DNA of 64,000 bases from Pseudoclavibacter terrae (lineage in GTDB: Bacteria > Actinomycetota > Actinomycetes > Actinomycetales > Microbacteriaceae), in assembly GCF_008831075.1 (NCBI RefSeq), contig NZ_WBJX01000001.1, positions 1,126,515-1,190,514 of the forward strand, written 5' to 3'. The notes under the pieces were generated by a model. It ran no database searches, was not told the origin of the DNA, and saw only the letters and a list, made by a program, of their open reading frames with translations. The position numbers and the translations under genes are program-made. Shown one piece after another: positions 10,737 to 12,183 of this stretch. Position 1 is the first letter of the stretch. Each line of letters begins with the position of its first letter.

Positions 10737-12183
10737 ATGCACTTCTCTGGTCCCGCCCCACACCACGAGCTCACGTACTCGGACGTCTTCCTGATTCCGA
10801 GCCGGTCAGATGTGGGGTCGAGGCTGAATGTCTCGCTCGCCCCCGATGACGGCACCGGCATGACGATTCCTCTGGTCGCCTCGAACATGAACGCGGTGAC
10901 CGGTCCCCGCATGGCGGCGGCGATCGCACGGCGAGGCGGTCTCGGCGTGCTGCCGCAGGACATGTCCCTCGAGGCGCTGCAGACGGCGATCGCCTGGGTG
11001 AAGTCCCAGGACCCGGTCCTCGACACGCCCTTCACCGCGTCGGGTGACGCGACGGTCGGCTCGGTGCTCGAGCTCGTCCCGCCCGTCGCCGGGTTCGGGG
11101 TCTCCGTGCTGGCTCCCGACGGGGAGGTGCTCGGTGTGCTGCAGGCGTCGACGCTCGCGCGTGTCCCGAGCGACGCCGTGCTGGCCGACCTGAGCCACCA
11201 CTTCGTCGACGAGGTGCCGCTGGCCCTCGCTCGCGACTCCCGGACGGTCTTCAACTCCTTCGCCGAGGCGGGCGAGAGCTTCGCTCCGGTGCGGACCGAG
11301 CGAGGCGAGATCGCGACGGTCACGGCGAGCGGCGCGCTGCGCAGCACGATCTACCAGCCGGCGCTCGACGCTCGGGGGCGCCTTCGAGTCGCGGTCGCCG
11401 TCGGCGTGTCGCGCAACGCGCAACGCGCTCGAGCGCGCACGCGCGCTCGTCGAGGCCGGCGCCGACGTGCTGGTCCTGGACACCGCGCACGGACATCAGG
11501 GCAGCATGCTGCGAGCGATCGAAGCGGTGCGTGGGGCGGAGCTCGGGGTTCCGATCGTCGCCGGCAACGTCGTCAGCGGGAGCGGCGTGCACGACCTCGT
11601 CTCGGCGGGTGCGAGCATCATCAAGGTCGGCGTGGGCCCGGGTGCCATGTGCACCACGCGCATGATGACCGCGGTCGGCCGCCCGCAGTTTTCCGCGGTG
11701 CTGGAGACGTCGGAGACCGCGCACGCGCTCGGCGCGCGCGTCTGGGCGGACGGGGGAGTGCGCTACCCGCGTGACGTCGCCCTCGCGCTCGCCGCCGGCG
11801 GGTCCGCCGTCATGATCGGCTCGTGGTTCGCCGGCACGGTCGAGGCCCCTGGGACGGTGCGCACCGACGACGCCGGCAACTGGTTCAAGGAGTCGTTCGG
11901 CATGGCGTCCACGAAGGCGGTCGAAGCGCGTTTCGGGGACCTCGAGCCCTACGAGCGCGCGCGCAAGCTCCTCTTCGCGGAGGGCATCTCGTCGTCGAAG
12001 ATCATGCTCGATCCCAAGCGGCCCGGACTCGACGACCTGATCGACATGATCACGACCGGCGTTCGCTCATCGTTCACCTACGCGGGGGCCGACTCGCTTC
12101 CCGAATTCCGCCAGCGCGCCAAGGTCGGCATCCAGTCGGCGGCCGGCTACGAAGAGGGCAAGGCCCTCCCGGTGTCCTGGTAG
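10737..12183 (+). pseudogene. guaB1: GuaB1-family IMPDH/GMP reductase gene with 7-bp frameshift
   Basis: Two reading frames together encode one GuaB1-family protein (IMP dehydrogenase-related; mycobacterial GuaB1 is a GMP reductase). The first frame runs from MHFSGPAPHHELTYSDVFL through a divergent CBS-like region to [10 protein letters not shown]. The second resumes with [19 protein letters not shown] and holds the catalytic loop [13 protein letters not shown] and the C-terminal [11 protein letters not shown]. The break falls on a tandem repeat GCGCAAC-GCGCAAC at 11411-11424. Removing one copy restores an exact 479-residue frame, close to the usual family length. As sequenced, the protein would be cut near residue 230 and lack the active-site Cys (about 303). 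Whether this is a real mutation, a reversible slippage site or an assembly error cannot be decided here. Confidence 0.85.
11411..11424 (+). repeat. 7-bp tandem duplication causing the guaB1 frameshift
   Basis: GCGCAAC occurs twice in direct succession, with the period extending to 11427. It lies precisely where the guaB1 frame shifts; deletion of one unit restores the frame through conserved residues. Slippage during replication is the simplest cause. Confidence 0.85.

Follow-up and report, generated by a model that had tools for sequence, protein, structure and literature searches.

A recent 7-bp tandem duplication probably inactivated guaB1 in one genome

In the window (the whole 64-kb stretch of DNA that was analyzed), the guaB1 gene changes its reading frame within a tandem heptamer repeat. 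Does this reflect loss of the gene, a reversible switch, a programmed frameshift, or an error of the assembly? According to the reading-frame list of the window, guaB1 lies on the plus strand, starts with the ATG at 10737, changes frame at 11410-11428, and ends with the stop codon at 12181-12183. The N-terminal frame spans 10737-11774 (ORF 10698..11774), the second frame terminates at 12183, and the two overlap by several hundred bases. A CNNM/CorC-PaeA-like gene follows on the same strand 56 nucleotides (nt) downstream (12240-13601); its family matches are all below the cut-offs.

Both pieces of the gene were compared with the GMP reductase GuaB1 family (NF052358, 479 positions) and with a solved GMP reductase structure (7oy9_A). 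The first piece, which comprises residues 1-228 as read in the family frame (10737-11420, plus strand), matched positions 3-225 of the family model with its residues 3-225 (233.3 bits; query 10737-11423) and residues 6-225 of 7oy9_A. The second piece (11431-12183, plus strand), whose 250 catalytic-domain residues lie in the other frame, matched positions 231-479 with its residues 2-250 (459.5 bits) and residues 231-479 of 7oy9_A. Both family regions are present and collinear, bearing out the claim that the duplication breaks a GuaB1-family gene. The pieces were scored apart and unjoined, and no single-frame, full-length match exceeded the family cut-off of 675 bits. The first piece corresponds to the start of the catalytic barrel plus the CBS region. 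The translation of the second piece contains a GAMCTT loop, the Cys of which (codon 11650-11652) is presumably the catalytic cysteine. When the N-terminal frame is read on past the array, an out-of-frame tail of ~117 codons extends to its first stop (11421-11774, plus strand; ORF 10698..11774).

The frame changes at two tandem copies of GCGCAAC (11411-11424), which are followed by GCG, in agreement with the original prediction. The full perfect array (11410-11428, plus strand) is 19 nt long and contains 2.7 copies of CGCGCAA; its period of 7 confirms that this is not a homopolymer error. The bare 14-mer is in itself not rare: with at most one mismatch allowed, the window (65-71% GC in 4-kb steps) contains one match versus 0.19 expected, a match was also present in 19 of 100 shuffles, and in the whole genome the 14-mer was found once and a reversed control pattern twice. 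The period-7 array is rarer. Under a Markov model of the window, 0.04 period-7 match runs of at least 12 were expected, and 0.22 over periods 4, 5, 7, 8, 10, and 11 together. In 636 kb of the contig carrying the window, the guaB1 array was the only period-7 match run of at least 12, and a set of heptamer tracts of its length was not seen. Directly 3' of the array, there is a perfect 8-bp inverted repeat with a 4-nt loop (11430-11449, plus strand). Its stem appears in both the MFE and the centroid fold, but the fold of the stretch is not more stable than that of shuffled sequences (z 0.37). The inverted repeat might stall the polymerase or promote slippage. Elsewhere in the window, imperfect tandem repeats with listed periods that are mostly multiples of 3 were observed at 35505-35705 and at 57295-57569; the former lie in the Q/P/G-rich N-terminus of ORF 35479-36612, after which a hydrophobic stretch follows.

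To place the break among relatives, the frame was read at 90 loci, namely the best 80 of 586 confirmed relatives kept from a contig scan and 10 loci from a search of 10 genus genomes, the window's genome (G000; 11 contigs, 3.91 Mb) and its own locus included. In 89 of these 90 loci, both guaB1 pieces were found in one frame with no stop, and the single exception was the window's own locus. Since two records (L006 and L092) are one and the same, the 89 represent at most 88 distinct other loci. In the nine genus genomes besides G000, the second piece lies in an open frame of 481 to 1862 codons without a stop. A programmed ribosomal frameshift that yields full-length GuaB1, for which the long overlap of the two frames would leave room, should be conserved as a frame break in relatives, and it was rejected because 89 of the 90 loci (best 80 of 586 plus 10 of the genus) have one frame. 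In addition, no X XXY YYZ slippery heptamer was seen at the array by eye, and the local DNA fold is ordinary, as the z value shows. We give this explanation practically no chance.

The four closest congeners (G004 to G007) contain a single copy of the heptamer at the homologous site and a guaB1 frame of 479 aa, which supports the family-like length of 479 codons proposed in the original prediction. Aligned with the window, they show one 7-nt gap and no further internal indel, and none of them shares the two-copy sequence. Substitutions relative to G007 shift their codon phase across the array in window coordinates, but not in G007 coordinates. In G007 and G005, the one-copy site reads CGCGCAACGCGC. 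These two genomes share CGCGC-AA-CGCGC, a 5-nt repeat with a spacing of 7 nt, which suits a slipped-strand duplication. The longest period-7 match run at the site is 5 nt in G007 and G005, 4 nt in G004, 1 nt in G006, and 12 nt in the window. Period-7 runs of at least 5 are common (712 in the 636 kb), so that the 5-nt repeat is permissive for slippage and not specific.

A recent slipped-strand duplication at the CGCGC repeats, which inactivated guaB1 and left no working GMP reductase to be expected, is thus the likely explanation: the duplication is absent from the relatives read, and two of the four close congeners have the full 5-nt repeat at the one-copy site. Replication slippage from one CGCGC repeat to the other, at a distance of 7 nt, would have duplicated seven bases in guaB1 of the Pseudoclavibacter strain. 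As the relatives keep the gene whole, this was most likely an ordinary and very recent mutation.

The same tract invites a different reading, in which heptamer slippage turns GMP salvage on and off and the population is a mixture of one-copy and two-copy cells. A tandem tract slips more readily than unique sequence, and a deletion of one unit could in principle bring the two pieces back into frame. However, the tract is short at 2.7 units, the full 5-nt repeat is missing from two of the four close congeners, and the array is the sole one of its kind in 636 kb. Among the relatives read (best 80 of 586 plus 10 of the genus), all of which are other species, the tract was found in none, and thus a tract present and variable among relatives was not seen. 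A purine-salvage enzyme would also be an unusual target of phase variation. Passages of a review (PMC11868660) ask for demonstrated reversibility at a high rate before phase variation is assumed and warn that short tracts arise by chance; reversion of silenced genes is dealt with in a part of another paper (PMC6819657). The switch is without support beyond the two-unit tract itself. We therefore consider this suggestion of the original prediction very improbable and set it aside.

An assembly or consensus artefact would mean that the cell carries one copy and an intact guaB1. We surveyed 636 kb of the contig (16% of the G000 genome) by asking whether substitutions keep the same codon phase to the left and to the right of each non-triplet indel. 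The alignment to G007 covered 517.9 kb with 430 gaps and 142 non-triplet groups, and that to G006 covered 462.4 kb with 1581 gaps and 184 non-triplet groups. Candidate frameshifts in which G000 deviates numbered five versus G007 and five versus G006, and guaB1 alone was in both lists, also when looser limits were used. G007 was the deviating genome in no candidate versus G000 and in three versus G006. Of the five G000 candidates versus G007, guaB1 is clear, one is located just past a stop, and three are ambiguous. Contig position 1163129 (window 36615) comes shortly after the stop codon of ORF 35479-36612. At 840406 and 1100355, several frames are open, and one of them has an ORF boundary at most 6 nt away. 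The other candidates, each from one comparison, are 963094, 842811, 867202, 1115214, and 1004758. A second well-supported mid-gene frameshift was not seen in the surveyed 636 kb.

Two of these positions deserve a description of their own. At G000:C1:842811 (L214:5811), a one-base difference from G006 has a codon-phase signal on both sides; a GC3-rich frame on the minus strand ends ~109 nt away, and the difference may be a C-terminal frameshift. At G000:C1:1115214 (L125:18214), outside the window, the 7-bp unit CGAGCGC is present in approximately two copies (one imperfect) in G000 and in three copies in G007. A first, gene-based survey was replaced by the codon-phase method; of 218 genes of G006, it had flagged 20 in G000 and 18 in G007. 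Its flags probably arose largely from ORFs taken at the first possible start, and guaB1 was left unflagged there, probably owing to its displacement by an extended antisense kgd frame.

That guaB1 is the sole frameshift found in both comparisons and contains the sole long period-7 array in 636 kb argues against an error-rich assembly, as well as against a repertoire of switches. The idea of an error-rich assembly was dropped accordingly, although some candidates from single comparisons are ambiguous. G000 may nevertheless have a somewhat raised level of error or decay, with further frameshifts. An artefact at guaB1 is still suggested by the direct comparison, in which G000 had five candidates and G007 had none, and by the restriction of the lesion to one genome among the loci read (best 80 of 586 plus 10 of the genus). 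Against it, the lesion is not a homopolymer, ~518 kb compared with G007 and 462 kb compared with G006 contained no other candidate common to both, and the 1.33-Mb contig extends at least ~195 kb beyond guaB1 on either side. Thus, the artefact raised in the original prediction is kept as a rival, and an unlikely one; a mixed culture is a further possible source of the sequence.

The substitutions show that the break is recent, as far as can be read from sequence divergence. The DNA around guaB1 is 94.4% identical to that of G007. The first piece differs from that of G007 by 30 synonymous and 5 non-synonymous changes. The second piece differs by 39 synonymous and, by path-counting, 2 non-synonymous ones, yet its protein is identical. 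When changes were assigned to the window branch with G004 to G006 as outgroups, the first piece had 9 synonymous and 3 non-synonymous changes, with 8 and 1 unassigned, respectively. The second piece (250 aa) had 10 synonymous changes assigned and 13 more unassigned, and no non-synonymous change. Without constraint over the whole window branch, 28 to 47 non-synonymous changes would be expected in this piece; zero therefore suggests, as a rough Poisson bound, a loss within the last 6 to 11% of the branch. Selection on guaB1 that looks unrelaxed is also what an artefact would leave, and the age pattern fits a recent mutation, a mutation in culture, and an artefact equally well.

If slippage inactivated guaB1 as proposed, the frameshift would swap the last ~250 residues for ~117 unrelated ones. 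The catalytic loop would then never be made in frame, and the cell would be expected to have no functional GMP reductase; the loss of activity could have originated in nature or in culture. Approximately 409 nt of guaB1 past 11774 would be untranslated, and this might exert polarity on the downstream CNNM gene. In the whole genome, PF00478 matched guaB2 (IMP dehydrogenase), guaB3, the two guaB1 pieces, and one weak match, for which the best NCBIfam match was glutamate synthase, far below the cut-off. No second GMP reductase was found among these PF00478 matches. GMP-to-IMP conversion is therefore probably lost, in line with the loss of GMP salvage suggested as one option in the original prediction. 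Guanine-nucleotide synthesis should be untouched by the loss of GuaB1.

How well such a loss is tolerated was addressed by scanning 249 genomes of the family with the GuaB1 model (NF052358; cut-off 675 bits, listing limit 1e-60). The cut-off was passed by 184 of the 249 genomes. By hand count, 189 of the 249 had a best E below 1e-130, comprising G000 (6e-137), four others at 1e-157 to 1e-166, and the rest below 1e-198. In 56 genomes, the best E was 1e-65 to 1e-100, and 4 had no match at 1e-60. Completeness was at least 90% in 49 of the 56 genomes and 77-88% in the 4 matchless ones. GuaB2 of G000 itself matched the GuaB1 model with 326 bits (E 4e-97), so we read the 56 genomes as having GuaB2-level matches. 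By hand count, 60 of the 249 genomes, about a quarter, have no match stronger than about the GuaB2 level; thus, the loss looks tolerable. On the basis of these matches, guaB1 seems to have been lost repeatedly in the family. Besides reduced genomes, some of ordinary size also had GuaB2-level matches alone (for example G020, G026, G038, G104, and G238; 3.2-3.9 Mb).

The observation behind this work was correct, and its explanation is most likely ordinary: a recent tandem duplication in a gene that relatives can lose. Judged by titles, no published description of this guaB1 case was found. The locus offers a clean, single-step gene break caught before further decay. It also teaches that relatives should be compared before a tandem array of two units, seen in a single genome, is called a switch.

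Compared with known systems, the window's gene resembles the GuaB1 GMP reductase family (NF052358; 7oy9_A) in its collinear pieces and in the retained GAMCTT loop, but unlike the family it is split into two frames by the array. With simple-sequence-repeat phase variation it has in common an out-of-frame tandem unit inside a coding region; in contrast to that class, the units are few, the tract is absent from the relatives read, and reversibility is here hypothetical. It is also like frameshifts caused by slipped-strand duplication, in that the length of the duplicated unit matches the distance between the copies of a 5-nt direct repeat found in two sister genomes. From that class nothing notable differs, and only the location is new.
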